Source: Paramacrobiotus metropolitanus (taxonomy: Eukaryota; Tardigrada; Eutardigrada; Parachela; Macrobiotidae). From it: a stretch of 64,000 bases of DNA. The stretch covers positions 1,116,001 through 1,180,000 of the forward strand of contig NW_026570228.1 in NCBI RefSeq assembly GCF_019649055.1, in the 5' to 3' direction. How positions within the stretch are numbered: position 1 is the first letter of the stretch; every line of letters begins with the position of its first letter. Below are positions 1-46,640 of this stretch, one piece after another. The notes below the pieces were generated by a model. That model had not been told where the DNA came from. It searched no databases and was given only the letters and a program-made list of their open reading frames with translations. Made by a program: the position numbers and the translations under genes.

Positions 1-1440
1 TCAATGGGATATTCCGTGATCGTGTTGTGTATAATCTCCATCCCGCCGCTGAAAAAACCCGGCGCCTCCACAATACGTTAGTAAAACAAATCCCTAAAAC
101 AGAAAAAAATCTACCCACAGTTTACTAAGCTTACAACAGACCAGAAAAATTATTGATTAATTATTCGTATAAAATTGGTTAAATGAATTAAGTCAGGTTT
201 TTTTTTCAAAAATTATTGTATCAATGTAAATGTGCGCTACGCCGGCTACGGTGTAATTTTAGTAAATACCCATCAAGCCACTACCAGTAATTTTTTCCTG
301 ACAAATCAACAACATTAAATTAAACCATAATAATTCAAAAATGTTTTGTCAGAAAATTTCAGAACCCTCGAAAACTAAGAATCACAGAAAACCAGCAGAC
401 AAAATGCAATCACGTAAAGTTAAACATGCAGTTTTTGCATAAAACCTGTACAACGGGTGGCGACATCCACTGCCTCTACAGGAAACACACCGCATCCGCC
501 ACAAAACCCGCACCTGTTTTGTACGGAATGTCATTTTCCGTTCCAGCTGTGATAAATACCATCATTCTCAAACAAACTGGACAGATGCCACATGTGGAAG
601 ATGGAGGCCCCCGCAAAAAACAGTGTGGGAAAGCTCCGGGAGGGGCTGCCCGCGAAGAGGGTCGCGGACGGCGAACGCGACGCTCTTCGTCCAGTTTTGG
701 CTGGCGGCGATAAGCGCGACGACGGACTGTGCAGGGATTTCATCAGCAGCGAGGATTTGCCTGGTCAAACGGGCGCGGATGTCGTGACACTCGTGACTCG
801 ATCGTGGATTAGTTGACAATCTGACCCGTGTCCATTTACAAACAACAAACCGCAAGAGATCCGCAAACCAAAAAAGCAACATTGACGATGAGTAAAATGG
901 AAAACGGTAAAAAAAAATGACAATTCACAATTGTCAAATGATAAGCTGAAGCAAGCTGCAAGTCAGTCCGAATCAGATAGCGAAGGAGTGGCGTGGAGAG
1001 GCGGGCTTATGCGCTGAGCCGACGAAATTCGTTATCGTACTTCCTTTGCATAATACCGGCGCAAATAAATTACAGTTGTATTTTCTAATTTATTTTATTT
1101 GAGCTAAATTTGCTACACTACTTTTTCCCGGTGTGCAAAATTGCAAATCATCGTCCAGTTAATTTTCCTTTTTTCTCCTTACCGCTTATCGTATTTTTTT
1201 AATAGTAGGCGGCTGGCCGGGCGCTCTGTGAGTCTTCTGGCTGATGGTAAGTCCAATATTAGTTAGCAGCAGAGAATGAAACAATAAATAACTACTCGTA
1301 GGATTTGGTGTGGCAGTTGTTATTCTACATATATATTGTTAGAGACACAGGATATATTACGTATATGATATTTTCTTGAATTTTAGGTGGATCATACAGG
1401 TGGGCTCAATATTATTTTGAAATATGTATTTGCATTTTCC
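1..1440. other. non-coding, two GC-richer islands
   Basis: I found no convincing gene here. The DNA is AT-rich except for islands at about 560-830 and 960-1250. The first keeps overlapping open frames on the minus strand (about 531-882), but none matches a family I know and none has clear splice partners. The second ends in a good plus-strand donor-like site (GATG then GTAAGT, near 1247), so it could be an untranslated first exon of a plus-strand transcript. That is an inference only. Confidence 0.4.
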
Positions 1441-1499
1441 AAAAATCGGATTTATTTAAAGGAAAGTTGTTGATTAAAGCGAATTTTGAATTATTAAGA

Positions 1500-3500
1500 G
1501 GAAACTCGTTTTACGGACTTAAAAAGAATTTTTGTCGCGGAAAATTGGCAGACTGTTAAAGCTGCTGTAAAGGTCATTGTTTGGTTTATTTGTTTTTTTA
1601 TTGGGGTGAAATTTGTAGTGATGGGTGATACGGAGACTGAATTATGCCGTTAGTGGCAAAACGTATTTCGTGGATTTCTAATTCTTTTTGAGATTTTTCC
1701 TCAGTTTTCCCGAGGAATTAAAAATAGCTGGCCGCTTCAAAAAGCAAGCTGACTTAATTGTGGATCAGTACAGTGACTTAACCGCTTAAACTAATTTTCC
1801 AAATATTTAATAATTATTGTCGGTTGCATTTATTATTATTTTCAAAAGTGCCGAAAATTATTGAATTTATGAGATAGAAAATGGTATTAAAGCAAGGAGT
1901 ATTAATATTTCCTTGTAAATAAACTAATTTAATTTGAATTCGCAACAACTCGATGTCGTGGTACTGACCCGCAGTTCAAAGTTATCGTAGTACGGTGTCT
2001 CTTCGTGATGCTGATTTTTCATATTTTTTCGATTTTTGTTGGAATTTTTACAGCCGCAAAAACAGTGTTGCAACACTTACCTGAGAACCCTATTCACATA
2101 ATTACTGCAAATTGCATAAGTAACAGAAATATCTAAAAATTTAAGTTATATCAGAAAACTATGAAAAAAATTGTTCTTTCTTTGTTCACTTGCAGCAGTG
2201 TTCAGTTGTGTGGGTGTCTTTATAAAAGATTTATTGCTAAAACCACGGCTTGCAATATTTCCGTTAAAAGGGGGAACGCATGTTAAAGACATAAGCAATA
2301 ACTATGTAAATAATTAGCGCATAATTCGCCGGTGCATTTTTCACGTATTCGATGTGCGCAACATGAAAAATTACGCTTACATGAAAATTAATCAAATAAG
2401 CTGTATTCACTCAATCATCGTTTTAATTGCTGGAAAACAAAATTAGCGCAATAAAGCAAAACTGCGCGTTGAGAAAGATATTCTGTGTGAAGCTGAATTT
2501 TGAATTTTCTAGTTTCTTCTCGCAGTATACTTTTCGAGATTTTTTCTCAGTGTTAGCACTTCCCGGGCAATTAAAAATTATTAATTTTGTCCGCTTTGAT
2601 AAGCAAGCTGACTCGTGGATCAGTACAGTGACTCCAATGCGTAAATCAGTTCTGGAAATATTTAATAATTAATGCTGGTTGCATTTATTATATTTTCAAA
2701 AATGCAGAACATTGTTGAATTTATGAGACTGGTATTAAGGCAAAGTGTATTAATATCTTCCTTGTACATAACTAAAATTAATTTAATTAAAATTTCGCCA
2801 GAACTGACCTTGTGGCACTGATCCGCAGTTCAAAGTTATCATAGTCCAGTGGCTATTCTGAATTTCATTTTTCAAATTTTTTCGATCTTCGTTTGAATTT
2901 TTGTAGTCACAAAAACAGCGCTGGCAGTTTGCAACACATAAATACCAGAAAAACATTCACACAATTGCTGTTAAAGGCGTAGTAAACAAAATAAAAAAAA
3001 TATATAATATCTAAAAATTCAAAAATTATCGTCAAATAAACTATGAAAATTGCTGTTTAAATATTTTTTTCTCCACGGTTTAAACTGCCGATGGATTTGC
3101 AGTATTTTTGCAGCAGTGTCCAGTTGTTAAAGTGCCGGAAAAAAACATTAAAAAGCACGGCTTGTTAACATTCCCGTTGAAAATGACCATATGTTGGGTC
3201 AACGCTACGCATGGATTTCAATTTAATTAATACGAGTAGTTCTACGTAAATAATTTACGCGTATAATTCATCGGTTAAATGTAAACATTTTTAGAACTTA
3301 TGAGTTCGGTTTGAAATTCAGGAGATGGGAGATTCGCAACATGGACAATCAGGTTAGGTATTATAATGCCTTAAAATGAAAATTAATTACTTGATTATGC
3401 TTTATATTTCATTAATTATTTGCTTCCGTAGATCGTTTTTCTTTATCGAAAAGTAAAGTTGGGGCATGAAGCAAAACTGCGAGTTTACCAAGATATGTTG
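1500..3500. repeat. diverged ~0.9-1 kb direct duplication
   Basis: Two collinear copies can be followed by eye. Blocks at about 1680-2165 and 2520-3050 share ordered phrases: an AAGCAAGCTGACT segment, then GGATCAGTACAGTGACT, then TTGCATTTATTAT, then CGCAGTTCAAAGTTATC. A second pair of blocks (about 2195-2402 and 3110-3410) follows in the same order, and AAGCAAAACTGCG recurs at about 2455 and 3471. The unit is therefore roughly 0.9-1 kb and present about twice. The copies differ by many substitutions and small indels, so the duplication is old. The open frame at 2427-2672 lies in copy 2, is not preserved in copy 1 and is unlikely to be coding. Positions 3501-3934 hold nothing I can name. Confidence 0.7.
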
Positions 3501-3934
3501 TGTTGATTGCCACGAAAAGTGTTAAAAATCGTAACATGCACGGATTTGATTAAAAACTCGATTCGGTCGTCGTCGTATTAATGTAACGAATAAACAAAAA
3601 ATGACGAAGCTAACTGCTCATGAAGACGTACGTTATAATAAATAAGCGATACAATTTAAATTGATTTATTGTCGCAGCTTTCGAAGAATTTGTAATATTG
3701 TTCTCAATGGCGTTTCATGTGTGCGCGCTAAGAGCCAAATAGTAAGATTTCGTTCTTCTTAACGGCTGGGCCGTTCAACGTAGGTTAGTGGCTAAGGCAG
3801 TAGTTAGCTAGTGTAGAAATACCGTAGATTTGTAGAAAGTAGTTACAGTGCAGTAATAAGTAAAGTAAAATTAATCAGAAGCACTGTAGTACTCGTACTC
3901 CAGTAGAGCGCGCTGCAAAGCCTTCCGTACATAG

Positions 3935-5011
3935 GAGTTTATCAGTCGTACCAGTAGCGGGGGCCGCCAAGCCCGGCTGATATCACATGATCGGCACCGG
4001 CGGCCGGTTGCCGTACATGTGAGTTTATCAGTCGTACCAGTAGCGGGGGCCGCCAAGCCCGGCTGATATATCACATGTGCGGCACCGGCGAAGCCGGTTG
4101 CCGCACATGTGAGTTTATCAGTCGTACCAGTAGCGGGGGCCGCCAGCCCGGCTGATATACTCGCATGTGCGGCACCGGCGAAGCCGGTTGCCGTACATGT
4201 GAGTTTATCAGTCGTACCAGTAGCGGGGGCCGCCAAGCCCGGCTGATATACTCGCATGTGCGGCACCGGCGAAGCCGGTTGCCGTACATGTGAGTTTATC
4301 AGTCGTACCAGTAGCGGGGGCCGCCAAGCCCGGCTGATATACTCGCATGTGCGGCACCGGCGAAGCCGGTTGCCGTACATGAGTTTATCAGTCGTACCAG
4401 TATGGGGGCCGCTAAGCCCGGCTGATATACTCGCATGTGCGGCACCGGCGAAGCCGGTTGCCGTACATGTGAGTTTATCAGTCGTACCAGTAGCGGGGCC
4501 GCTAAGCCCGGCTGATATACTCGCATGTGCGGCACCGGCGAAGCCGGTTGCCGCACATGTGAGTTTATCAGTCGTACCAGTATGGGGGCCGCCAGCCCGG
4601 CTGATATCTCAGATGTGCGGCACCGGCGAAGCCGGTTGCCGTACATGTGAGTTTATCAGTCGTACCAGTAGCGGGGGCCGCCAAGCCCGGCTGATATACT
4701 CGCATGTGCGGCACCGGCGAAGCCGGTTGCCGTACATGTGAGTTTATCAGTCGTACCAGTAGCGGGGCCGCCAAGCCCGGCTGATATACTCGCATGTGCG
4801 GCACCGGCGAAGCCGGTTGCCGTACATGTGAGTTTATCAGTCGTACCAGTAGCGGGGGCCGCCAAGCCCGGCTGATATACTCGCATGTGCGGCACCGGCG
4901 AAGCCGGTTGCCGTACATGTGAGTTTATCAGTCGTACCAGTAGCGGGGGCCGCCAAGCCCGGCTGATATACTCGCATGTGCGGCACCGGCGAAGCCGGTT
5001 GCCGTACATGT
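3935..5011. repeat. 12-copy ~90-bp hairpin satellite
   Basis: Twelve tandem monomers start with GAGTTTATCAGTCG at 3935, 4021, 4111, 4201, 4292, 4381, 4471, 4561, 4649, 4740, 4830 and 4921, and the array ends at 5011. Monomers are 86-91 bp and differ by one-base indels and a few substitutions. Each spans an inverted repeat. For example, 4243-4270 pairs with 4274-4302 around a GAA loop, with only about four mismatches or bulges over 28-29 nt, giving a 60-nt hairpin. The remainder of the unit is a G/C-rich spacer. Because the length is close to a multiple of three, long meaningless open frames run across the array on both strands. The array could be a structural satellite, a source of hairpin RNA or a relic of a foldback element. 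Confidence 0.93.
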
Positions 5012-6734
5012 GAGTTGCTGAATTGAAAGGCCATCTAGGCGGGTTTTGGCAGTTACCGTTTGGTCCCATACGAGAATAATCACTTGAAGTCAAGGAGGAT
5101 ATGCAGTTTCGGTCCTCATTATGTTTGGAAACGGTGGCACGTTTGGTGAATTTAATCCTTGTTTCATTTCCCCGGAACATCATCCCGATATGAACTGAAG
5201 GGAATCTTTAGCAGAAGCTGAGAAACAGAATCTTTTTTTTAAGAAAAGCTAACGATATGAATTCATGGCCTTATCGTTTCTTAAAAAGTTAAGATATCAT
5301 AGGCGTGTGCAAAAGGTGGCGTCTTGTCTCGTTATTAGACAAGTGCCGAGCTGCCGCGGACTGCCATTGCGGCTAATGTATGGTAGAACTACTGTTTTTC
5401 CGCCAACATATGCATAATCCGTATTGCTCACTGGCCGCTGCGGGCGGATGGTCTTACCTTACCGATTTACGTTGTTACCTTACCGATCGTGAATGAAATG
5501 TCAATGAATTTTAGTCAGCGTTTAATGCAAAAAAGGTTCTTGAACAACCTGTGAAACGGTTTCGCTCCGGACTGCTAAGGCACATTACGAGAATTTTTCT
5601 AGTTAAACCTTATTAACCGTAAGTCCGATATGCGATTTCAAATCATGATGTGGATTATTTCAACTCTATACGGAAAACTTCAATCACTATACCACATAAA
5701 ATATTATGCCAGCACATATGCACTCTGTGCACAGTACACTGTATAGTGCAACTTCCTTTACCCTTTTATGCTTGCAGTATTACAAGAAGTTACAACACGC
5801 TTTCATGGTTTTTGCCTTTGGACCAAAGGTTAATATCAAAGGCTTTGGTACTAACGTATTTTTTTGGCAGAGTGCTTTATGGTGCAAACAATTCACTCTA
5901 ATTATTCTAAAAGCGTGTCACCATACTCAATAGTACGGTTTCATGAAAAATTAAATCGAATACAGTCGGTCCAGAACGAGACCATTGTTATACCTATCTA
6001 CCCGTTAACTTGTTTGTTTGGATCTTATCACATCAATTTATACAAATCTTTCGCCACAAATTGCCATAAATAGGGCAAAAAATAATTTAGAGCCCTTGAG
6101 AGCGAACGCTTCCTTGCATGTACACAAATTTAGTAATATGTACCATGTGGTTTGCCTGCAATAGTGAGTTTTCCGACCGAGAATTTCCTTTGGTAGTACA
6201 CAGTACTGGATTTCATGCGTTGGCATAACGCATTCTTCCGTTTGACGAAATGAGCATACACCGATTTCAGTCTTTTTTGCAACGTGTCGAGATTCGCTTT
6301 CATTAATCAGAGGAGTAAATATTACTACTAAATATTATTACTAATAGGAGGAGTAAATATTATTACTAATAGGGGAGCAAATATTATATTAAATATAATT
6401 ATATTAGTGTCTTTACGAGTAGTATAGCTTGTGCTAGCAAGATCTGTCATACGTCCTAATTCTTCAACAACTGGGGATTTTTTCTTTCTAACAATCTTAA
6501 ACAGCCGATCAAACTTCTCCGCCTACCGTCGCCAGCTTAGGAAAAAGGGATACATGGTAGAATCATTAGGGATACACTATAAGCATGAAACGGAATACAC
6601 GACACTAAAGTGGGATACAAAGTGAATACGCTAAGAATAAAGCGGTACAGCAGAGAATACCGTGAGATACACTACGGAATCAGCGGTTGAAGATAGTTTA
6701 CCGTATGATTCGCTACGGATTTCGTTGTGGTAGT
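5012..6734. other. non-coding gap with small repeats
   Basis: No supported gene. At about 6308-6390 a GGAGTAAATATTATTACTA phrase recurs about three times in AT-rich DNA. At about 6545-6690 the words GGATACA, GAATAC and GAGATAC recur about eight times at irregular intervals of roughly 10-35 bp. The segment lies directly downstream of the truncated paralogue at 6735-8339, where its missing last exon would be expected. I see no trace of that exon. Confidence 0.5.
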
Positions 6735-8339
6735 TTAAGGTCCAGCATCAGGTACGGCACGACCGACACTGGCCACCACGGTATAATCAGCAGTACTGTT
6801 CACCATTGCGAAAGGCCACTTGCATACTGGTGCATTTTGATGGAGGAAATCCAAATTAACACGATACACGGGCATCGATTTCAGTATAACCTTATCATCA
6901 CTCCAGTACATCTCCTTGTCCGACCGAATCAACTCATCATAAGCTTGGTTTAACGCCGAGGTTAGTGCTGGATTTGTGCTATTTCCGTAGTCCGCGAACA
7001 TTTTCTGCCGTACCCAAGTACGATTAGTTCCGAAGATACGCTCCAGTCGGTGCGCTTTTTTATCAGGTCGCTCGTTCTCCCAATACGTGGCCGCCCACAT
7101 CTCCGTAGTGAAGTTTCCCGTTGTGGTAGTATTAAACGGGAAAGCATCCGATATCTCCCTAACTAGTCGGTCCATTATGGCGTCGACGACGAAATCGTCC
7201 TCACCCAACACCTTCTCAATGGCTGTCGCAACCAGTGTTTTCGTAAAGTTAGCGTAATCGCTAGGTTGCATAAATATATAATTTCGCCCGGTGGCAAAAC
7301 GCTTCGAAAAGGCATTAACAATTGGGTTATTTGGGAGATGTTTTGTGTCGATGCATATTAGAGCTGATTGAAGAAACCGGTATGATATTGCAAAAGACAC
7401 AAACAGACGCGACGCAAACGTTGCGCTGTCAGACTGTAGCGCGGTCAGCATTTCGTTGCACGCCGCGTCTGTGGGGCAGCGGATGCACGCAGAGGCGGTC
7501 GGATCCCTGTGGTCGATGATTTTCCAGGGGGTTTTCTTCATCGTTCGACTGAACCCGTTCGTGTAGTATCCCACAAGCATATGCTTAAACGGCAGCGGAA
7601 CGACCTTGGAATTTGCCCCACCTGCTGAAGGAACGTGCTTGGAAATATAATCTCGAACAGCGGCAATATAGGATTCATCCCAGAGTTTGAATGAGACGGA
7701 CAGACAGCTTGCATTCGTCGCGGCGTTCACGGAAATAGAAGAGGCATTTGGCAAGAGAGTCACTGCCGGAGCGTAAAACAGTAGTGATCTATTGGCTGAC
7801 GCGTTGAAAACTTGAATTTGGAAGTTGTCATAAGGAAGCGTAAACATCGGCTTAGTCAAATTAATTATTCCTGCAAACACTAGAGGTTAAGAGTGCTGTT
7901 ATTTTCTGGATCATTGCGAAATCGTTCGCAGCTGTACCATAGTCAGTGGATACAGCACTGCTTTTGATAACCGTGACGCTCGGCGATTTCTGTCTTCCTG
8001 AAGCCGGCGAGGATGACATGTTGCCTGGGATACTTCTGCTGAAGATTCTTTCGTCAAATAATGATTTCTTTGGATAAGGGATCTCGTTACTGGCGGTATC
8101 CGCGTCAAGCGTGGTATCCACGGTAGAAGAGAGTGCGTCCTCACCGGCTATTGCGTTATCTGTTGAGTACAAATAAAATAACAATCGATTATTAGCTACT
8201 CCAAAGGCTGGCGTTATGAAACACAGCGCACTTAGCAGCAGCGGATTGTATATATACAGTAATGAACGTGGTACTCACCGCAATTAGCCGCATAAACCAG
8301 CTGAGACAGGAGCAGTACAATGTGCCAAAACCGTCCCAT
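6735..8339 (-). CDS. secreted paralogue 3, C-terminally truncated
   Basis: Third member of a tandem family of secreted glycoproteins of unknown function. Three exons: 8339-8279, 8159-7938 and 7870-6735, with phases 1 and 1, giving 472 aa. Exon 1 is a signal peptide (MGRFWHIVLLLSQLVYAANC) that stops exactly at a GT donor. Exon 2 encodes a Ser/Thr/Asp-rich, low-complexity linker. Exon 3 encodes the large conserved domain with several NxS/T sequons (for example ANFT and NTTTT) and paired cysteines in a CIRCPTDAAC motif. Compared with its two neighbours it stops early: a TAA stands where paralogue 2 has a CAA codon, the following splice donor is damaged (CCGGTAAG became CCGTAG), and no copy of the beta-rich last exon lies downstream. 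It may be a shortened functional gene or an early pseudogene. The preserved reading frame and upstream DNA favour expression. Confidence 0.8.
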
Positions 8340-8535
8340 TGTAGAAATTCCACAAAATAAAGTACTTAATGTTGAATTCGGTTCGGCAACAACTGCCGTT
8401 TACATACAATCTTAAATGCTTTGCAGCATGATTATAAGGCTCTAAGTGCTGAAGCCGCTTGAGGGCTAAACACGGCACACATATATTCTGTAGTCGCCAC
8501 AAATTTTGTAATAGGTGCTACTGAGTAGCTGATTA

Positions 8536-8760
8536 GGTCTGCATCCTGAATACTGTGCATAAACGCGTGATGTGAACATATGTACGTTGCCTAAAGATGT
8601 GAGTATGTGGTGTTCGTTGCTGATTTATGCCATTTTACTTCCGCAACGGCACGTTTCGGCGGGGTGACGGAAAAAATTCTGGCAGGGTCGCCGTATAGTC
8701 ATGCTGTCGTTGCCATGGGCTGTTTTCATCAGCGCACAAGCAAACACGCATCCGTGCTAA
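8536..8760 (-). promoter_or_regulatory. conserved upstream block of paralogue 3
   Basis: About 200-420 bp upstream of the start codon. The block resembles 12741-12952 and 19010-19226 in front of the other two paralogues. The strongest core is 8698-8756, with TGCTGTCGTT and GGGCTGTTTTCA followed by AGCGCA and CATCCGT. It is likely a shared promoter or enhancer segment, though it may simply be recently duplicated DNA. Confidence 0.5.
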
Positions 8761-9521
8761 AATTCCGAGAATGTCTATGAAGGTTGCCTGTTCGGCGCCC
8801 AGAGTAGAGCAAAAAGCAGTTAATCAAGCTCAATTCCGGCATCACTGTGGTCAACAAAACATATATCTTGCCTGTGATTATTTACTTCCTCGAAAGTGAA
8901 AACCGGAATAATCGGCTCAAAATCCGTCGTTGTCACAAACTTTTGGCAAATTTCTCCGATTAAAACGTGCAGACATAATGTGGCATGCATATCGCTAGAT
9001 ACGAGCATCATTTACAAGCTCAACCACGATTCGTTACTGAGCAATTACCTGAAATTTAGTTTAACGCCTGCCATTTCTATGGCCGATGGATACTTCGATG
9101 CCAAACCATTTTACAATATACCAATTACTGCGTGATTTAGTACGGTCCAGAGATTTAATTCATATAATAATCTTTTGTTAGCGCACTGCGCATGTGAACA
9201 CAGTATGTGCAAGTGCAACTGCCTCCCATGCAAGCAGTATTAGAATATTAGTAGCACACCCGCACCTATCGTTATCAGCTTTGAAGCCTTTGGTACCGCT
9301 TTATTATCGAATTTTCTCTCCTTATTGCGGTTTTTACATTCTGTTTATCAGACATTTAAAACTACACAAAACAGCAACCTCCGCAAGCTATTTGATTACT
9401 TCATAGCACAGATATGATACCCGCCGTCTGACTCGTAAACAAGACATTCCTTCAGCTGGCGGGGAAGAAAGCTCAAGCACATTTAAAGCGATGTGAATAC
9501 CTTAGAAGCGCAAACATCAGA
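8761..9521. other. intergenic, no gene seen
   Basis: Between the upstream block of paralogue 3 and the 3' end of paralogue 2. Small open frames here have no family resemblance and no conserved counterpart in the equivalent spacers of the other paralogues. Confidence 0.5.
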
Positions 9522-12500
9522 CTAGATGTCTAGCTTGACTTCATTAATGACATTGAGGCGGAAGTCGTTGAATTCCGCCACAACCCACTTGTTTCCATTA
9601 GAGACTGGTACATAGTACTGCGCCCATAGGTGGTTGCCACGGTAGATCTGCACCGTAGACTGCGAGTTCGCCAAATTCCAATCAGCGTCTGCCTTGTACT
9701 GGCGGTAGTTGTTTTCGTTGACCTGAATGCGATAGACGCCCGGCAATTGTTTCTTGATGAGAACACTGCCGAACATTGTGTCCACATTGTCGTAGACCAT
9801 CCAGCCGTCCGCGCTGATGTTTGCATTAGCTTGTACCACCGCACGTTCTTTGCTGTTTTCCAATGGTCCCGAGACCAGCAGCTTCACGTCATACGCATCA
9901 TATCCTGTGGCTCGCAAGATAATTCGGATTTCATCGTTATCCATCGGTTGGGTCATTACACAATCACGCCATTTATCAGCTTTCGGTACCACCACAACAC
10001 TGAGCGGCGGTGCAGCGTAATCGGTGTCGGGTGCACTGATTGTGACGGTGTAGTGACCGCTCGGCAGTTCGGCTAACCACGTTCCGTTTTCCGCCGTGTA
10101 AGCAGTAGCCGCTACGGGCCCGGTCAAATTGTATCGTCCCGCGCGCAGCTCGACTTGGATGCCTGCTTTGGTCTCATTTTGATTGCCCTTAACCAAATGC
10201 ACGGTTCCTCCTGTTCGGCCGGCCCCAGTTCCCCGGTAAGTGGGAATAAATAGCAACGGTTCCATGTGCAAGAACTCCCCGGTTGAACTGAAGCTGCCGG
10301 AGAAATTCCGCAGCGTGATTGGATAGTACTGGTTGACCTCGAACACAATGCTGTAGCCACTGGTTCGTGGCAAGGTTAGGTAGAACTCGCCGGTAAAGTT
10401 ACTGGTTGTTACGGCGAACTGGTCAAACGGCTCGTCATTGGCGTCCAGAAGGGTGGCGACGATGTTTTCGTTGTTGAACGCCCACAAGTTATCCGCATTG
10501 CGAGCCTGCCAACGAGTGCCCGCTTTCGAGACGGTGAATGTCTTGATCTCTAAAAGGCAAGGTGAAATTTTGTAGAGTGCGACGACGAGCTCCTAACCAC
10601 TAGCGAGTAGCGACATGCAAAATAGGGGAATCGAATGCGAAAATTCGAATGTAAAGCATAATGTGTTTCGTATTGAGAAAAACAGTAAAAATTCTGGTTA
10701 ATAAAAGCAAAATTCGGAAAAATTCTAATATGTGATTACTCGAGGGACCAAAAAACTATCTGGATGTGGTGAGAAACAAACAATCTAGCCGAATATGTGG
10801 CAAAACATTTTTAATAAAATCATAATTACGGGCTTACCGGGTTTCGCTGTAGTAGCTTGAGGTCCATCGTCAGACAAGGCCCCACCGACATTCGCCACCA
10901 CGGTGTAATCGGCACTACTGCTCGTAATAATAGCTTCCCCATTGCAAATCAGTGCATTTGGACGGAGGGCGTCGAGACTGACACGATACATTGGCATCGG
11001 TCTCAGTAGAACCTTATCGTCCCAGTACATCTCCTCGCCAGACTGAATCAACTCGTCATAAGCTTGGTTGAACGCCGAAGAAAGTTTTGTATTTATGGTA
11101 TATCCGTAGTCAGCGTACATCTTCTGGCTCACCCAAGCCCGATTTTGACCTAGGACACTTTCCAGTCGGCTCGCTTTCATATCCGGTCGCTCACTCTTCC
11201 AGTACGTCGCTGCCCACATCTCCGGGGTGAAGTTCTCTGTTGTGGTGGTGTTATACGCGAAAACATTCGACATTTCCCTCGCTAACCGGCCCATTTCCTC
11301 GTCATCGACGAATTCATTCTCAGTCAGCGCCCTCTCAACGGCTGCCGCAACGACCGTTTTAGTAAAATTGGCGTAATCGCTGGGTTGCATAAATATGTAC
11401 TTTTCTCCCTTGGCGAAGCGTTCCGAAAGGGCACTGACAATTTCGTTTTTTGGGAGACGCTCTGCATCGACACACACTGGAGAGGATCGGGCATTTGGGG
11501 CGCTCGTTGCAAACGACAGAAAAAGACGCGACGCAAATTTTGTACTGTCGGTCTGCAGCGCGGTCAGCGTTTCGTTGCACGCCGCGACGGTTGGGCAGTG
11601 GATGCACACAGAGACCGTCGGTGGCATGTTGGCAATAGGTTGCCAAGCTGTGTTTTTAATCGCTCGGCTGAAACCGTTCGTGGAGTATCCCACCAGCATC
11701 CATTTGAACGGCAACGGAAAGACCCGGAAAGACTTAGCTGCTGGAGGAACGTACTTGTTAACATAGTCTCGAACAGCGGCGATGTATGGTTTATCCCAGA
11801 GTTTGAAGGAGACGAACAGACAGTTTGAATTTGTCTCATCATTCACGCCAATGGAAGCGCCATCCGGCAACAGAGTTGCTGCCGGTGCGTAAAACAGCGT
11901 CGACCCATCGGATGTTGTGTTGAAGACTTGGATTTGGAAGCTGTCATACGGGACCGTAAACATCGGCATAGTCAAGTCAATTATTCCTGCAAATGCAACA
12001 TGTCTTATGATTGCCCTTTTCACTGGTATCAAAATCGTTGGGATCTGCTTTACCATTTGGGTTAGACACTGATCTGCTGCTGATTGCTGTTGCGTTTGGG
12101 GATTTTTGGTTCTCGGATACCGAGGTAGATGACGCGCTGTCTGGAGAACTGGTGACTCCTTCGTCAGATGACAATCTCTTCGGAAGAGGAATCTCATTAT
12201 CTGCGGTGTTCGCTTTCGGTGCGGTATCGGTAGCAGATGATATTTCGTCCTCACCGGCTACTGCGTTATCTGCTGAGTCCAGAACATAACAGAAATTACT
12301 GAATAATCCAAAAACTGGCATTAGTACAGATTTGTCCATAAAGCGTTTCTATTGCCATGAATCAAAGACTTATTATTCTTATATAAAAGGTTGAGTACAG
12401 CCCCTTGAAAAGTTGCGTATAACCTTTCGGCAGACTGTACGGTAGTACAGTACACTTTGTGCTTACCGCAGTTAGCCACATAAACGAGCAGAGAAATGAG

Positions 12501-12527
12501 CAGCACGGTGTGCCAAAGCCGGCCCAT
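9522..12527 (-). CDS. secreted paralogue 2, full length
   Basis: Full-length member of the tandem family. Four exons: 12527-12467, 12269-12054, 11986-10838 and 10549-9522. All introns are phase 1, giving about 817 aa. Exon 1 is a signal peptide. Exon 2 is a polar linker starting DNAVAGEDE. Exon 3 is the main unrecognised domain, with conserved PLPFKWMLVGYSTNGFSR, CIHCPTVAACNETL and EMWAATYWKSERPD motifs. Exon 4 (about 342 aa) looks like serial beta-sandwich modules. One has the pattern of a carboxypeptidase-regulatory/transthyretin-like unit (GIQVELRAGRYNLTGPVAAT, then ELPSGHYTVTI). The tail ends in a strand-rich WAQYYVPVSNGNKWVVAEF segment. Many sequons suggest glycosylation. There is no transmembrane segment apart from the signal. 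The first two introns are 197 and 67 bp and the last is 288 bp. The function is unknown. Confidence 0.87.
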
Positions 12528-12740
12528 TTTATGGAGAGGTAATTATAGTGAAAGAATTTTCACAATATAAATCACTTAATAACGTTGAAACCGGTTCTTC
12601 GGTATCCGACGATGTCAGCATAAACAACTGTGCGTTTATATACGATGATCCAGGCTCTGATTGCTCAAGCCGCTTAAGGGTGTGATGACGGCGCGGATGT
12701 ACGAGTATCTAAAATTGTAATCGTTCCAAATTTTGTAACA

Positions 12741-12952
12741 CAGAACTGATCAGTTCTGCATCCTGATTACCATGCATAAACGTGATGTGGTTGTAACGTT
12801 CGTTGGTAATTAATGGCATCTACATCCGCAACGGCACGCTTATGCTGGGTAACGGACAAGATTCTGGCAAGCCAGACGTACGAGTCATGCTGTCGTTACC
12901 GTGGGCTGTTTTCAGCAGCGCAGAAGTAGACATACATCCGTACTGTAATTCA
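12741..12952 (-). promoter_or_regulatory. conserved upstream block of paralogue 2
   Basis: Lies about 215-425 bp upstream of the start codon and aligns with 8536-8760 and 19010-19226. Its core at 12882-12951 carries GAGTCATGCTGTCGTTACC, then GGGCTGTTTTCAGCAGCGCA, then ACATCCGT. The equal placement in front of each gene argues for a retained regulatory role or a promoter duplicated with the gene. Confidence 0.5.
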
Positions 12953-13716
12953 AAGAATGCTTAACGAGTATGTTCGGCACCGCAAGCGGGAAGTCGTCAA
13001 GCTCGATTTACGGCATCGCTGCGGTGAACGATTCCCGGGATTCATTATGCACAACAGTATATAAGTGAAAACCGGAATAATCGGCGCGAAGCCTTTTTAG
13101 CGCGATAACTACAAATATAGCTAATTAAACTCTGCCAACTAAAACATCACACAATGTAATCAAATATATCGCCCGACATTATGTAACAAGCTCAACAGTT
13201 ATTCTTTGTTGAGTGAGCACTTATGTATCTTTAGATGCAATCGAAAGCGTATTTCCGTTTTAACTGATTACCTATCAGTTATTATTAATATTTACCCTAC
13301 AGTAATGACTATTATTGCAGTAGTTGAGTCTAATAACGTAAACTGTATGACAGGACGGTTTCACTCTTTGGGTGGCCGCTTCATTGGATGACTTCGTTTC
13401 GGTTTTTGTTCACATCGTTATTAACTAACGTACAGCGACCAAACACAATTAGCGAAATCATCTTCAAAAAACTAACTAAAGTAACTAAAGGTGTAATAAA
13501 GCCAAAAACAACAACAAAAAGCTTGTGCTTTGTTGATCCTAATGCGCAAAGCAACAACCTCGTAGGGAATGTAAACTGCCCAGAGCTTTCCAAATTCCCA
13601 CCAAGACCCACACGGCACACACAGAATCAACTTAAACCAGGAGTTTTATTCAGCAACAAAATTCACGACGTATTCGGTTGGTATGGTGGCAGGGGTCCTT
13701 CTAAATGCTTTCCAAG
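12953..13716. other. intergenic, no gene seen
   Basis: Spacer between paralogue 2 and the unrelated gene at 13717-15030. A plus-strand open frame at 13388-13720 has no recognisable domain and runs antisense into the 3' end of that gene, so I do not call it. Confidence 0.45.
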
Positions 13717-15030
13717 TTAGGAAATCTCCTTCCTCCGTTTGCCTGCACGCGAAGCGATGGTGTCTTCGTTATCCAGTACTGAAGCGTTTGACGCTGAAAG
13801 CTGCTGTGCTCCGATTTCACCACGCTTTGATCTTTTCGAGCAGTTATTATTGTTGCACCAACGTGTCTTTATGATTACACTCCCATCATCAAGGGGGTGC
13901 GAACGAAAATGCTGGTGCACCGGAACAGCCGCTTTGATAGGTGCCTGTTGAACTTTAACAGTTGCAACACTGGAACTCTGCGTCGGTTGCGTTTCCACTT
14001 TCATAAAACTAGCACCCGCCGATGCACTGGCGTCTTTTCGTCGAGACGCCGCGCTGGTCTGTTTTAGTAAGCACAAATAAGCTGCCGTAATATGGAACAA
14101 CTGGATAATCTGTTATTTCTAAACGCAGTAAGTGGCTACACTACCTGTAATTCTTCACTTTCACCATGGGACTCCTTCAGCGACTGCAGAAACACTTGCA
14201 ACTGCTCGTCGGGTTTTGCCATGAAAAGGCCCAGCTCGGAGAAAGTACGCATCGGGCAGAAATTCTCGACGAATTTCAAATACTGCCATGCCAATTCAGC
14301 AGCTTCGGCTTGTTGCAAGCCATGCAATACCGGGTTCCAGTCGGTCTCCTGACTGTCGATGCAGAAGACGGCAAACCCTGTTGGTTTTTCGCCGACGAGC
14401 ACCGCAGGCGAGAATTCGGGGAACATCAAGGCAGCATGTCGCAGCCAGTCATCAGCACCGTCACGGCTCCATTGGCGCAGGTTCTCGAAAACGTTAGACA
14501 GGACCGTGGGTAAAGGAACCAAGTGCTTTGATCGAAGAGCCAAACCCATCTGGCTTTCCTTGGTCAGCGGTGTCTCTTGCAACTAACAAACAACCAAAAG
14601 GCAAAAACATAAAACACAGACGTTTCGCAGACATCATGATTGCGAATGTGGAACAGTCTACCCGGGTAAGACTAAAAACTGCAAAAGCCAAGCAATCGGT
14701 ATATCACGTAGCAACTGTCACCATAACAGTGATAACACATAAACAAAATTTGACATCTGGTTGGAAAGCCCAGCCTTATTCACCTACCTGAATGCGGACT
14801 TTGGCGTCTTTAACATCGCGCAGTGCTGCAAGAACGTGACTATAGCCGTACACCTGATATCGACTGGGAAGATACGTGGACTTCGTTGCGGGGAGGCAAA
14901 AGGGTAAATCCACGGTTGACGCTTGCACAGCGCGTTGGAAGCGTTCCCATTCTGTGGAGTTCGTCCACGGCAACCACGTGCTGCAGCCGCGAGCTACCAC
15001 CTGGGACGCATCAATGACCAAGACTTCCAT
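13717..15030 (-). CDS. unrecognised three-exon gene
   Basis: A 340-aa protein from exons 15030-14788, 14582-14145 and 14058-13717. Both junctions are phase 0 after CAG codons (CAG|GTAGGT and CAG|GTAGTG). It starts MEVLVIDASQVVARG. The first exon has an alternating hydrophobic strand typical of a Rossmann-like or PIN-like beginning. The middle exon is helical and acidic (AEAAELAWQYLKFVENFC). The last exon is a basic, Ser/Ala-rich disordered tail with a possible nuclear signal (KRSKRGE and GKRRKE). I do not recognise the family. The clean frame and phases make it a likely real gene, cytosolic or nuclear because no signal peptide is present. It interrupts the tandem secreted family and shows no similarity to it. 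A further 5' exon cannot be excluded. Confidence 0.72.
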
Positions 15031-15611
15031 AATAATAAAGAACGCTTATCTGTAATCTGTAGAAATGCACCAGTTGGTTCTTATTACAACGGTAAGATTC
15101 TTAGCACAGGGAACACGAACGGAAGAACTGTCTAAGAAGAGTGTTGCATATCACAGACACAAACTTCAAGAACCGTGCAAGTTAAAACTTGCCAAATGTG
15201 CCCTTCGACGGCAGCGAGCAGTAGTGCACGATAGGGGGCATATCAGACCAACTCAACCGCACTTTACTGGCGGTTACTGTCTACACACGTCCCTAAAGTT
15301 TGCGGCAAACGTTTCATAAATAAATGATAAAAATGCTACATATTATTCCGGCGGCGAATGCGGAAGTGTTGCGCTTCTTGATCAGGCGGTTTATTTCAGT
15401 TACTACTGTAGCCATCGAATCAAAATCGCAAAAGAACAACACGAATTTGATAGTAATCTACAGACCACATTACTTGAGGTCACCTGACATTGTTGCTGGC
15501 TTGTTACCAATTCACAAGAACTGATTCAAAAGATTTCTTATGCTAAACGTTTTTTATGCTAAACCATAAGCAGCGATAAATTGATAGCATGCTGGTATGA
15601 TCCGATCATGA
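15031..15611. other. intergenic, no gene seen
   Basis: Spacer between the unrecognised gene and the 3' end of secreted paralogue 1. It would hold the promoter of the gene at 13717-15030 and the 3' UTR of paralogue 1. No repeats or conserved blocks were noticed. Confidence 0.45.
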
Positions 15612-18600
15612 TCAGGTGTCGTACTTGACATCGTTTATGACATTGAGACGGAAGTCGCTGATTTCCGCCACAATCCACACATTTCCATCCTTGATCGGTA
15701 CATAGTACTGCGCCCACAACCGCTTGCCGCGGTAAATCTGCACCCAGCTCTGCGAGTTACATAGATTCCAGTTTGAATCTGCCTTGTACGGACGGTAGTT
15801 GTTTTCGTACACTTGAATGCGATAGGCGCCCGGCAACTGCTTCTTGATAAGAACACTGCCAAACATCGTATCCACGTTGTCGTACATTATCAAGCCGTCA
15901 GCGCTAACGTTCGCACTCGCTTGCACAATTGCACGACCATCCCTGTTTTCTAACGGTCCAGAGACCAATAACTTGAGGTCGTACAGATCGAAACCGGTTG
16001 CCCGTAAGATAATCCGGATTTCGCCGTTATCCAACGGTTGGGCCATGGCCATATCATGCCAGGTATCAGTTCCCGGTACAACCACCGCACTGAATGGCGG
16101 TGCAGTGTAATCTGCGTCGGGTGTGCTGATTGTGGCAGTGAAGTGACCGCTTGGCAGTTCCGCCAACCACGTCCCATTTTCCGCGGTGAAAGCGGTGGCA
16201 GCCACGGGTCCGGTCAAATTGTAGCGTCCTTCGCGCAGTTCGACTTGGATTCCTGCTTTCGTCACAGTATGATTGCCACTGACCAGATGCACGGTTCCTC
16301 CTGTTCGGCCAGAACCCTTCCCCAGAGAAGTTGGTATAAAAAGCAGCGGTTCCATGAACACCACATCTCCTGGTAAACCGAAATTGTCGGAGAAGTTGCG
16401 CAGTGTGACTGTTCTGTATTGGTTGATCTCGAACACAATGCTGTAGTCACTGGTTCGTGGTAACATTAAGGCGAATTCGCCGGTAAAAGTGGTGGTTGTC
16501 ACGGTGACCTGAGAGAACGGATCGTCGTTGGCGTCCAGCAAAGTGACGGTGATGCTTTGGTTGGACAACGCGTATAAACTGGATGCATCGCGACACTGCC
16601 ACTGAACGGTCGCTTGCGAGACAGTCATTCCTTTGACATCTAGGCGAAACGTAGAAATAGCTTCCGTTAACCAAATTCGTTAATAGTAAATTGTTCCATT
16701 ACCAATCGCAGTACACAGCATCCTTCTTTAGTTCCGTTTGTTAACATAGCTTTATAACAGATGTAAAGGTTACCTTCTTTTTTCGTGACAAATTGTGTTT
16801 TATCGTCCGAGACGCCGCCGCCGACATTTGCAGGCACTGTATAATCAGCAGTGCTACTCGAGATGTGGACGGATCCTTTGCACACGGGCGCCTTTTGACG
16901 GAAGACGTCTAAGTTGACACGATATATTGGCAATTTGTCCAGTACGAGCTGATTATTGTCGTTCCAAAACATTTCCATAGAATTCATCATCTCATGATAA
17001 GCGTGTATTACCTCCGCGGAATAAGGTACAGGATCACTGACAAGAGTGGTTTCATAACCGATGTAGCCGGAATCCACCTGCTGTCTCACCCAGGGACGAT
17101 AGCTTCCCAGAATACTGTCCAGTCGACGTGCTTTGATATCGGGTCGCTCGTTCTTCCAGTACGTTGCTGCCCACATCTCCGGAGTGAGGTTTCTGATTGT
17201 GGTGACATTATACGGGAAAAAGGCCGACATCTCGCTGGCTAATCGATCAATTTCGTCGTCGTCGACGAACTCCCCTTCATCAACCATTTTCTCAACGGCT
17301 GCGGCCAGGAGAGTTTTGGTGAAATTGGCATAATCACTGGTTTTCATGAACATGTAATTTCGTCCGCTAGCGTTTTTCGAAAGAGCACTGATAAACGCAT
17401 TTCGAGGAAGATGTTGCGGGTCAATACACAACGGAACCCTTCGAGAAACCGGTTCCTCAGATTTAAAGGACACAAACACCCGCGATGCAAACTTTGCGCT
17501 GTCATACTGAAGCGTGGCTAAGGCATCGTTGCATGCTGCCGATGTCGAACAGCGAATACACATGGAGATCGACGGTGGCATGTTGGCGATGGACTGCCAA
17601 GCGGTATTTTTCATCGTTCGGGTGAATCCGTTATTTGAGTACCCCACCAGCATCCATTTAAATGGGAGTGGAAAAATCGCTGAAGTAATTATAGGGTTCG
17701 AATTAATGTAGTAAGAGACATAATTCCGGACAGCGTCGTGGTAGGGTTTATCCCAGAGTTTCAATGAAATGAACAAACAGTTTTTATCGGCTTCAGCATT
17801 CAGCGACACGGCAGCGGCATCCGGCAACAGAGTGGCTGCCGGTGCGTAATATATCGCCGACGCATCGGATACTGGATTGGTCGTATTGAAGGCTTGGATC
17901 TGGAAGCTGCCATATTGAACCGCAAACATTGGGACTGACAGGTCGATCACTCCTGCCAGCAAAAAACCTTTGTCACGCAATAGTTTTATACATGTTGCTG
18001 TAATGAGATTAGTGTCTGCAAATGTTTTACCATTCGGACTGGAGATTGTCCTGCTGCTGAAAGCTGGGACATTTGCTGAGCCGCGCTTTCCGGACAGCAC
18101 ATCGGTTGGCGATTTCTTCCGCACCGGAATTTCGTTATCTATTTCGGCAATGAGGATATTAATCTTAAGTAATCGAAACGATACACCACAACGCGAGTCG
18201 TGATGGTTACTGCCCCCTAACGCGACGCACTGATCCACTTACCAAGTTCTGCGCTCTGACTCGCGTTTGCTGATCGCTCGCCATCTTCTGAAATGTCTCC
18301 ATCTGTAATAAAAAAAATCTAAATTTCGGGCATGCTAAGCTGTTGACAACTATAGGAATGTGCACACTTTCTTGCGTGATGTGCATACTGTAATACATTC
18401 TAGCATCTTAACACATTCTATGTCCTTCATCTACCATCCTATCTACCGGACATCCGCGTCGGTATGTACATATTCGTAATACAGTCTACCAAAAGCCCAC
18501 GTTGCAATACACAACAAGAATTAAAAGGAATTGCCATACACACTGAAATAACAACGGACTGGACGTTTAAAATTTTTTTTCGTTTGAACTGTTTGTGATT

Positions 18601-29532: not shown

Positions 29533-29855
29533 GTGCATGTGCGTTGGTTACTTGTACAATGTAGGACTAAATGGTCGCATAGCCCCATACCCAGCATTCT
29601 GTACGCAAGCGGTGCAGTGCACTTGTACGAAACGGATATTTTGAACTCAGTCGTACAGTGCACTGCGCTGCATGCGTACTGAATGTGGAGATGTTGGGTA
29701 TGCGACCATTTCGTCCTGAGCTGTATGTGTAAAAATCACGCATACATCTATACAAGTACAATATCGCTGGCCAGCCAATGGCAATTGCGAAATAGCCTTA
29801 GCTGTATAGACTTATGCGTGATTTGTACACATACAACTAACCAACGCAAATGCAC
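29533..29855. mobile_element. 323-bp foldback MITE with TA target
   Basis: The terminal inverted repeats are 25 bp with two mismatches (start GTGCATGTGCGTTGGTTA on the left). They are flanked by TA on both sides (29531-29532 and 29856-29857), the signature of Tc1/mariner-type insertion. Inside are two further hairpins. One pairs 29563-29630 with 29653-29719. The other pairs about 29727-29756 with 29797-29833. There is no coding capacity. Confidence 0.75.
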
Positions 29856-40815: not shown

Positions 40816-42288
40816 TCATGCGCAGCTCAAAATCCTTTTTCGCTCTTCTTTACGCATTTCCATTTCTTCCTTTCTCTCTTCGCGACGAGCTTCCATTTCT
40901 TCCTTTCTCTCTTCACGACGATCTTTTATTTCCTGCTTGCGTAACTCCAGCTTAACCGCGTCGGTTTTTTCTTTGTTGTGGTAAATGTTTTGAAGAATTT
41001 CCGGCATTGTTGGTGGCTTTTCTTTCTTTTTATTGTTGCCTTTCTTCTGCTTGCCGAGATTTTCCTCCTCGTCGCTGTCTATCGCCAGTCCCGCACGATA
41101 CCGGTCCAAGCGGTCCATGCTCTGCAGGTCGTTCTGTGTGTACTTTGTAGCCGGTTTGGGTAGCTTGCGTTTACTGCCCGACGTCGAAGCGCTGTCCGGT
41201 GCGCCGTCCGTGAGTGTTTCCGCTGAACGCTCTACAGCTTCCAGTGCTGGTTGCTCTTTGCCCACCGTGCCGCCCGCTTCCAGCGCATCACCGGTGGTGT
41301 CGTCTACCGTATCCAGATCCACTGTGTCCACGTTCTTCAGCAAATTGCCAAGTGCTCCAGCCCTTCCGTCTGCCGAGTCGCACAAATGAAGCGGATTAAA
41401 GTTCGGACGGTCTCCCATAATCTTGTCAAGACGGTCGAAATGGCGGCATTTTTTGTTGATCACAGCTAAATTAAAACATATACCGCTAATAATACACACA
41501 GTATTGCATAATTTTAAAATTTAAAAATTTCAAGTATTTTCAGTTTTTTCCGTGACTTCCAACTTTTATTATAAACTAAAACGAACTGCCGTTGCCAAAT
41601 TTCAAAATTTTAAAGTTGGTGCAAACTTTAAAATTGAAACTTTAATGTGGTTTCTCTTACAGCCTGGTGTGCAACAAATACAAGAACAACAAAAACTGAC
41701 CAACAGACCTTTTTATAATCGATTTTAAAGTTTTTTTGATTTTTAAAATTTTCTTATTTAATTTATTTTTCTTATAAGTAACAACTACACACCTCTTATG
41801 GTGCTATTGTTGAGCTTTTCCATACGGGTCATTCCACTTTCCGCTTCAACACCGGTCCCCGTTTTTCCCAGCCAGTCACTGGTCTTGCGGTAAGATTTCT
41901 CGATGTGGCCAATTTTATCCAGAATTTTCTTTTCGGTCCTTTCTGTTTGGATGCCATTTTCTTGCAGGTAACGTTGAATTTCGACGGCCAGGTTGGCTTT
42001 TCCAACTTTGCTCGCACTTTTGTTGTCATTCCGAAGACGGTGATAGTTGTCTTCCAACCACGATATCAAAACGTCTTCATCCTTAATTGGCCATTTGAAG
42101 TAATCTCGCTTTTCTCGCTTGGCAGCGGCTCCAGTTGCTGCAATTTCCTCAATTTCGTCGTTATCCGCGACCACAGGCTTGGATCCATTTGCATTTGCTG
42201 ATGTACTGGCAGCAGAAACGACTTTCTTCCTGATTATAACGCGCTTGAGTGCCTTATTGACTGCAGTGGCTACTTGATTAGTCGACAT
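40816..42288 (-). CDS. Harbinger Myb/SANT-like partner protein
   Basis: 381-aa protein from exons 42288-41793 and 41465-40816. The intron is phase 1 (AGAG|GTGTGT ... TTTAG|CTGTG). The N-terminal half carries a Myb/SANT/MADF-like DNA-binding region (FKWPIKDEDVLISWLEDNY, then KIGHIEKSYRKTSDWLG). A conserved joint follows (KIMGDRPNFNP). The C-terminus is a Glu/Arg/Lys coiled coil with EERKEEMEARR-type repeats. PIF/Harbinger transposons normally carry such a second protein, which binds the element ends and brings the transposase into the nucleus. Unlike the transposase, this frame is intact. It could have been kept by the element or taken over by the host. Confidence 0.85.
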
Positions 42289-44465: not shown

Positions 44466-44935
44466 GGATAATGGAATGCTTTTGTTTTATTTTCTGCTAG
44501 CTGCGCTGCGCTTGCTCGCGCCGCAGCTCGGCATAGCTGTTGCCTCCGCCTCCGGTTTCCACTCCCGTATCATCACGGTAAAAAAAAGTTAAGCTGAACT
44601 GTAAGAAGAATCTCTTCAGAATAGCAGGACAATAGAATCTTCTCGTTTTACTTGCTGCTTCGCTCGCTGCGGTGCGCTTGCTCGCGCCGCAGCTCGGCGT
44701 TGCCTTTGGCCTCGCCTTCGGTTTGTGGAACCGTATCATTACAGTAACAAAAAGTTTAAGTGGAACTGCAAGAAAAATCTGTTCAGGTTAACAAAACAAT
44801 AGAACCCTTTTGTTTTACTTGCAGCTTCGCTTGTTTTGCTGTGCTCGCCAGCGCCACGTTTTGGCGTCGCCTTTGGCTACGCCTTTAGTTTCCACAGTAA
44901 ATAGACATGATACACTACCAAAAACTGACACAGTT
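44466..44935. repeat. 167-bp tandem repeat, about 2.8 copies
   Basis: The AATAGAA word starts units at 44631 and 44798, and a related unit begins near 44466. Shared parts include TTGTTTTACTTGC, GCTTGCTCGCGCCGCAGCTC, CGTATCAT.AC.GTAA and AAAGTT.AAG.TGAACTG. Copy 3 is the most diverged. A piece (GCGCTGCAGCTCGGCGGCGC) reappears near 45409. Confidence 0.8.
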
Positions 44936-45834: not shown

Positions 45835-46445
45835 CCTACACCGGGCAAAATTTTCGGACCGGGTCCATAAAACGAGCTACTTCTACTATTGTACGGCGGA
45901 CTCTGCATAAAAATGCATAAGTATGTAAGATTGAAAAACAATAAGTATTTTCGCAAACGTCAATTCCCTAAAAGGACACGCACCAAGGGCCGCAAAAAAC
46001 CCTTCCCGGGTCCAAATTTTACGACCGCCCTAATATCACTGCTAGTTTGTCAATAATGACCGGGTTATAATTTACGTCACGGTTCCCAAAAAACAATCCA
46101 CCCGGGGGTCGCTAAAAAAATCCGGCCCGGGTTCAAATTTCCGGACCGCCTTTACATTATTACGGCGGGTTCGTCAATAATGACCGGGTTATAATTTACG
46201 TCACGGTCCCCGAAGAACGCTCCACCCGGGGGTCGCTAAAAAAATCCGGCCCGGGTCCAAATTTCCGGACCGCCTTCAAATTATTACGGCGGGTTCGTCA
46301 ATAATGACCGGGTTATAATTTACGTCACGGTCCCCCAAAAACGCTCCACCCGGGGGTCGCTAAAAAAGTCCGGCCCGGGTCCAAATTTCCGGACCCCCCG
46401 TACATTATTACGGCGGGTTCGTCAAAAATGACCGGGTTAGGATTT
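45835..46445. repeat. 124-bp tandem repeat, about 4-5 copies
   Basis: The phrase AATGACCGGGTT recurs at an exact spacing of 124 bp (units anchored at 46051, 46175, 46299 and 46423). Other constant words are CACCCGGGGGTCGCTAAAAAA, CCGGCCCGGGT and ATTATTACGGCGGGTTCG. The first units (45835-46050) are more diverged. It is GC-richer than the surroundings. Confidence 0.9.
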
Positions 46446-46640
46446 GAATTTTAAACTACCTTCTCAATTGTTTCAGCGGGGAACTGCGCCCCCCGCATCC
46501 CCTGCTTATTGGGGCTCCGCCCCAAACCCCGGCCAGGGGCTTCGCCCCTGGACCCCGGGAACCCGGCTCTCCGGTTCGTCACGTCACACATTTTAAATTA
46601 AAAACGCTCGCTCGCTTGATTAAACTTTATTTCCTTTTTT
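46446..46640. repeat. GC-rich hairpin cluster
   Basis: Follows the 124-bp array. Short perfect palindromes include TTGGGGCTCCGCCCCAA (46509-46525) and CCAGGGGCTTCGCCCCTGG (46533-46551), then CCCCGGG and CCCGG words. These may be the end of the element that carries the array. Confidence 0.6.

Follow-up and report, generated by a model that had tools for sequence, protein, structure and literature searches.

Positions 3915-5016 of the 64-kb window, by which we mean the whole stretch of DNA analysed, hold a tandem array of about 1.1 kb in which twelve units of approximately 91 bp lie head-to-tail. Tandem Repeats Finder placed the array at 3925-5016, with a period of 91, 12.2 copies and 95% matches, and segmentation divided it into 12 units, each 86-91 bp long (the last comes out at 96 bp, with five bases of the next repeat attached to it). 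The original prediction of twelve units of about 90 bp, each with a hairpin, was borne out: eleven hairpins of 55-60 nt are complete, and one is cut at the right end. The coordinates first assigned to the array, 3935-5011, begin about 20 bases too late and stop 5 bases too early, as 3915-3976 matches the unit at 89% and the left edge lies nearer 3915 than 3935. The 91-bp monomer comprises a 66-nt quasi-palindrome and a 25-nt GC-rich spacer, and both edges of the array are cut inside a hairpin: it starts within a diverged 3′ arm and ends within the twelfth hairpin (4963-5016), which is without the outer end of its 3′ arm. Head-to-tail copies of one non-coding monomer place the array with minisatellite and satellite DNA, and the inverted segments in each monomer, with their predicted hairpin, place it with satellites of dyad symmetry. 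Stop-to-stop frames of up to 245 aa cross the array, but no reading frame is kept throughout because unit lengths vary from 86 to 91 bp, and a coding repeat was rejected.

Seventeen ORFs were listed in the window, and the ten that were scanned yielded fibronectin III, immunoglobulin and Kelch domains, together with two kinds of transposase. Judged by these domains the window appears to be animal-like; comparison of one fibronectin-type ORF with solved structures narrowed the lineage no further. The ORF at 33253-33966 matches DDE_3/Transposase_1 and is presumably mariner-like; that at 38890-39735 matches DDE_Tnp_4, and we take it to be Harbinger-like. A Myb/SANT match at 41785-42288 fell below the cut-off. 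To the right of the array, three minus-strand ORFs are similar by eye (6735-7880, 10785-12254 and 16667-18238), the first two of which gave no Pfam match. A second type of ORF is found among them at 9522-10487 and 15612-16628, of which 15612-16628 gave a carboxypeptidase-regulatory-like match that did not reach the curated cut-off. The ORFs in 6735-18238 look like a tandem gene family. The AT-rich DNA to the left of the array contains an old tandem duplication of about 0.85-1 kb (1958-2488 and 2812-3503), 70-74% identical over three matched pieces. Located 220 bp to the right of the array is a loop-less quasi-palindrome (5236-5287) with 26-nt arms that are 81% complementary; the fold of 5234-5290 is moderate (z -1.9 on the plus strand and -3.0 on the minus strand). 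No tRNA or tmRNA was found in the window.

Read on the plus strand, the array opens with a partial unit (3915-3976) made up of the diverged 3′ arm and the first spacer. Hairpin 1 (3974-4034) is the most diverged, with a shortened 5′ arm, an altered loop, 25 pairs and a predicted energy of -35.3 kcal/mol. Hairpin 2 (4060-4124; 28 pairs, -49.1 kcal/mol) also has a shortened 5′ arm, and both of its inner wobbles are Watson-Crick pairs. The consensus form is found in hairpins 3 (4149-4214), 4 (4240-4305), 6 (4419-4484), 9 (4688-4753), 10 (4778-4843) and 11 (4869-4934), so that six of the eleven complete hairpins are identical in sequence. Hairpin 5 (4331-4394; 28 pairs, -42.8 kcal/mol) carries a 2-nt deletion in its 3′ arm, and hairpin 7 (4509-4574; 30 pairs), in which an inner G.U wobble has become G-C, is the most stable of the twelve at -54.1 kcal/mol. 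Hairpin 8 (4598-4662; 28 pairs, -46.0 kcal/mol) has a shortened and mismatched 5′ arm; one-arm shortening, originally noted in the first two units, holds for both and extends to this one. Hairpin 12 (4960-5016) is cut at the right array edge and, folded as 4960-5019, retains 21 pairs at -38.2 kcal/mol. The 25-nt spacer between closed 66-nt hairpins, as at 4306-4330, shows no intrinsic structure (z 1.1 on the plus strand and 0.3 on the minus strand).

The hairpin originally given as an example (4243-4302, 60 nt, within hairpin 4) folds into 27 pairs around a GAA loop with one mismatch and one bulge, at a predicted -45.7 kcal/mol; none of 200 dinucleotide shuffles was as stable (z = -11.5). The hairpin and its loop were as described, and the arms, put at 28-29 nt, proved slightly longer in the consensus, where three more pairs (CGG/TCG) close the stem to give a 66-nt hairpin of 30 pairs, 27 of them Watson-Crick and three G.U. 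As RNA, the consensus is predicted to fold at -52.1 kcal/mol on the plus strand and -39.0 kcal/mol on the minus strand, the plus-strand fold being the better because every wobble in the consensus is G.U on that strand. With DNA parameters a hairpin is still predicted for 4240-4305 (-28.3 kcal/mol on the plus strand and -22.8 kcal/mol on the minus strand). When 66-nt windows were folded at 6-base steps, the two-strand mean energy of those outside the array was on average -11.1 kcal/mol (SD 4.4, best -38.5, n = 10461), and by these predicted energies the array stands well above the rest of the window. A review counts about 180,000 near-perfect palindromes of more than 40 bp in the human genome (PMC7999016), and a single hairpin of the size seen in the array is therefore not rare. 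It is the tandem row that is unusual.

Whether the pairing is selected was approached through the variation between copies. Pairing is intact in 97.9% of 195 cells across the 7 distinct rows, so the original statement that it is kept in nearly all copies is true; the uniformity reflects the near-identity of the units, which would be recent copies, and no function is needed to explain it. Among the 30 pairs in these 7 distinct rows of 12, 25 are invariant, two show one-sided changes that preserve pairing (G.U to A-U and G.U to G-C), and three depart from the consensus by broken pairs only. At the two variable wobble sites where pairing stays, the changes are to Watson-Crick pairs only. The excess of compensatory changes proposed as a test did not appear: two-sided changes were found at none of the 30 pairs, and 353 of 500 shuffles did as well in covariation score, in a comparison of twelve close copies that gives little power to see selection. 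One-sided tolerance was also unremarkable, with pairing kept at two of six substituted paired sites by hand count, as against 33/180 by chance (P = 0.30). Nor were the arms less variable than the spacer: after the positions were recounted by hand, 11/63 arm positions and 5/25 spacer positions varied (Fisher P = 0.77; the raw alignment count had been 13/63 and 6/25, P = 0.78), in an alignment that left out the truncated twelfth unit and from which the row named 'left' was removed before counting. Each of the three wobbles in the consensus pairs G with U on the plus strand and sets A against C on the minus strand, a pattern that hints at a role at the RNA level and that has a probability of 0.125 by chance. 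The data neither demand nor exclude selection on folding.

We consider the array to be a local minisatellite in apparently non-coding eukaryotic DNA; its monomer is quasi-palindromic, and slippage or unequal exchange would have spread the units and kept them alike. We give this reading a probability of roughly three in four. The array would have started from one palindrome-bearing unit and grown in tandem by replication slippage, template switching or unequal exchange. The short-loop hairpin probably aided this growth, through fork stalling or template switching when single-stranded, and may also drive changes in copy number. According to a review of palindromes, the risk of recombination through stalling and breaks rises when the arms are longer and more similar and the spacer is short or missing (PMC7999016), and stem-loop models of tandem growth within MITEs have been described (PMC8268682). 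Recent exchange would keep most units alike and leave the left-edge unit to decay. The leftmost unit is the most diverged, at 91% to the consensus; against this reading, the left edge alone is decayed, and the right-edge unit matches the consensus up to the cut (100% over 54 nt). Non-adjacent units 2 and 7 have in common a C at monomer position 43 and the loss of a spacer A, and units 1, 2 and 8 have an A at position 12. These shared variants, the left-edge decay and the cut edges fit a young array that has undergone slippage, conversion or unequal exchange, although the variants shared by non-adjacent units could alternatively be recurrent changes. If the array is a minisatellite alone, it represents a clean natural example of a palindrome-bearing unit expanded in tandem.

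Further copies of the monomer were sought at several scales. There were none elsewhere in the 64-kb window, where the best off-array matches were of 12-14 nt or weak (E 0.59 or more). Monomer patterns, two in each collection, gave 0 matches in IMG/VR and GTDB contigs, which as viral and prokaryote collections are little informative here; a two-unit query matched no phage, and six short monomer pieces used as text queries of the literature found no paper. A decayed thirteenth unit at the left was considered and is not claimed: the BLAST match at 3893-3922 is 77% identical with E 0.59, 40/500 shuffles of 3860-3914 and 345/500 of 3700-3914 scored equally well, the score of 3831-3914 was reached by 961 of 5976 background segments, and the fold of 3880-3948 is no better than that of shuffles (z -0.1). 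An inverted relic of the monomer in the right flank, which scored well against shuffles (reached by 1/500 for 5017-5100 and 13/500 for 5017-5200), was dropped as ordinary against the window background, where 130 of 5976 segments scored as high.

One rival reading is that the array is a tandem hairpin-RNA locus like the Drosophila hp-CG4068, in which a plus-strand precursor with a 30-bp hairpin per unit would yield Dicer siRNA duplexes that silence a target elsewhere. With its 30 predicted pairs, the consensus unit would give a duplex no shorter than a Dicer product. The uniformity of the copies, the fact that all three wobbles favour the plus-strand RNA, and the separate formation of both hairpins when two units are folded together (4243-4424) would also suit such a locus, and the twelve copies resemble the 9-20 tandem copies reported for hp-CG4068 in four Drosophila species (PMC10317233). 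When the whole array is folded as one RNA, however, the minimum-energy structure contains local hairpins, defined by 80% of bases paired within the hairpin, in only 2 of 11 cases on the plus strand and 0 of 11 on the minus strand, because the palindromic units can pair unit to unit. Limiting the pair span to 66 nt gives -674.3 as against -735.1 kcal/mol on the plus strand, a cost of about 61 kcal/mol, and in such models a row of local hairpins would depend on co-transcriptional folding, which could still favour it, or on brief exposure of single-stranded DNA. No Rfam family reached its gathering score in the window, the microRNA families included. Below threshold there were 15 rows up to E 10, nine of them for microRNA hairpins, the best being MIR918 at 63.4 bits (E 3.2e-10) where 268 bits are required; but the matches lie on both strands and several span two or three units, and we therefore read them as hits to generic models of long hairpins. 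The same 15 matches, in 3800-5150, include no ribozyme family, and a self-cleaving ribozyme (hammerhead or other) was rejected. With no excess of compensatory change, and no complementary target in the 64-kb window beyond matches of 12-14 nt or weak ones with E 0.59 or more, we regard it as unlikely that these compact 66-nt hairpins, spaced every 91 nt, form an independently evolved multi-hairpin siRNA locus whose plus strand feeds Dicer. Should small RNAs map to the array, the origin of tandem multi-hairpin siRNA loci would seem not to be confined to Drosophila.

Two further readings were weighed. The array might be the block of tandem repeats inside a non-autonomous transposable element, either a Helitron or Helentron or a tandem-repeat MITE, or a satellite descended from one. 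In Crassostrea gigas, nine of eleven closely inspected satellites are reported to be mainly associated with mobile elements of the Helitron kind, in a study that also discusses stem-loop models for tandem growth (PMC8268682), and two transposase-like ORFs (DDE_3/Transposase_1 and DDE_Tnp_4) lie in the window. The surroundings of the array argue against this origin. Among the 25 longest of 37 inverted-repeat pairs in 1-14000, with a minimum length of 18 nt and a maximum separation of 5000, none brackets the array. At E 0.01 neither flank (2800-3917 or 5017-6700) recurs in the window, save for an old local duplication to the left and a small palindrome to the right, and the weak resemblance of the right flank to the inverted monomer lies at background level (130/5976). 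A transposable-element source is, in our estimation, quite improbable. More doubtful still is a DNA element whose cruciforms are under selection, acting in recombination, as a replication barrier or in a centromere-like manner. The hairpin is predicted with DNA parameters too, as given above for 4240-4305, and dyad symmetry has been proposed to contribute to centromere specification (PMC13081366, PMC8822648). However, the copies number only 12, and gene-like ORFs occur in the same window; each G.U on the plus strand is an A.C mismatch on the minus strand, so cruciform arms would be unequal; and the arms are not constrained relative to the spacer.

Set against published systems, the local minisatellite that we favour is a palindromic minisatellite of a known kind. 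The claim that no named satellite has this design was too strong, as satellites with large intra-monomer dyads have been published, though described as uncommon (PMC13081366), and so has a row of hairpins that feeds Dicer-2, hp-CG4068 (PMC10317233). TmSat2 of Tribolium madens, the major satellite of T. brevicornis and the 385-bp satellite of Trichogramma brassicae are likewise tandem and non-coding with hairpin-capable monomers; the monomers of those satellites are given as 385-1061 bp and their inverted segments as about 80-470 bp, with the Tribolium satellites placed in putative (peri)centromeric regions (PMC13081366), whereas here the monomer is 91 bp, its arms are about 30 nt and the window contains one 1.1-kb array. 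In grasshopper satellites, short inverted repeats are reported to be common and were judged the outcome of stochastic processes (PMC8822648). The layout of a row of hairpins is common to the array and to hp-CG4068, the copy number of which differs between species (20 in D. melanogaster, 9 in D. simulans, 14 in D. mauritiana and 10 in D. sechellia). The Drosophila locus has Dcr-2-dependent siRNAs, which are lost in dcr-2 mutant testes of D. melanogaster and D. simulans, and a target, mus308 (PMC10317233), whereas the hairpins here are predicted from sequence. The satellites of C. gigas associated with Helitrons or MITEs form short arrays, as here, and have been discussed in terms of stem-loop growth (PMC8268682); in contrast to those element-associated arrays, our searches within the window found no element ends or shared flanking boxes around the present array.

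Other repeats and fold-backs occur in the window. The 167-bp unit array at 44496-44885 (2.3 copies) contains a GC-rich inverted repeat; one of its units is moderately structured (z -3.8 on the plus strand and -2.9 on the minus strand) and the other tested is not (z -1.1 and 0.8). Two units tested from a 124-bp array (45994-46439) showed no structure (z between -0.1 and 0.7). As the 124-bp units and one 167-bp unit are unstructured, the tested arrays do not as a rule consist of hairpin monomers. Adjoining the 124-bp array on its right is a GC-rich double hairpin (46470-46575) of the GGGGCTCCGCCCC and GGGGCTTCGCCCC type (z -3.6 on the plus strand and -2.8 on the minus strand). An ungapped fold-back scan, too blunt for a stem with a bulge, was controlled with four Markov resamplings in place of exact shuffles; it picked out one array unit and a single off-array place, 57783-57827, with 17-nt arms, one mismatch and an 11-nt loop. 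Lastly, a single long hairpin at 29600-29672, whose stem around GTGCAGTGCACT has about 21 pairs (z -5.4 on the plus strand and -3.5 on the minus strand), could be the remnant of a MITE or a lone hairpin RNA.
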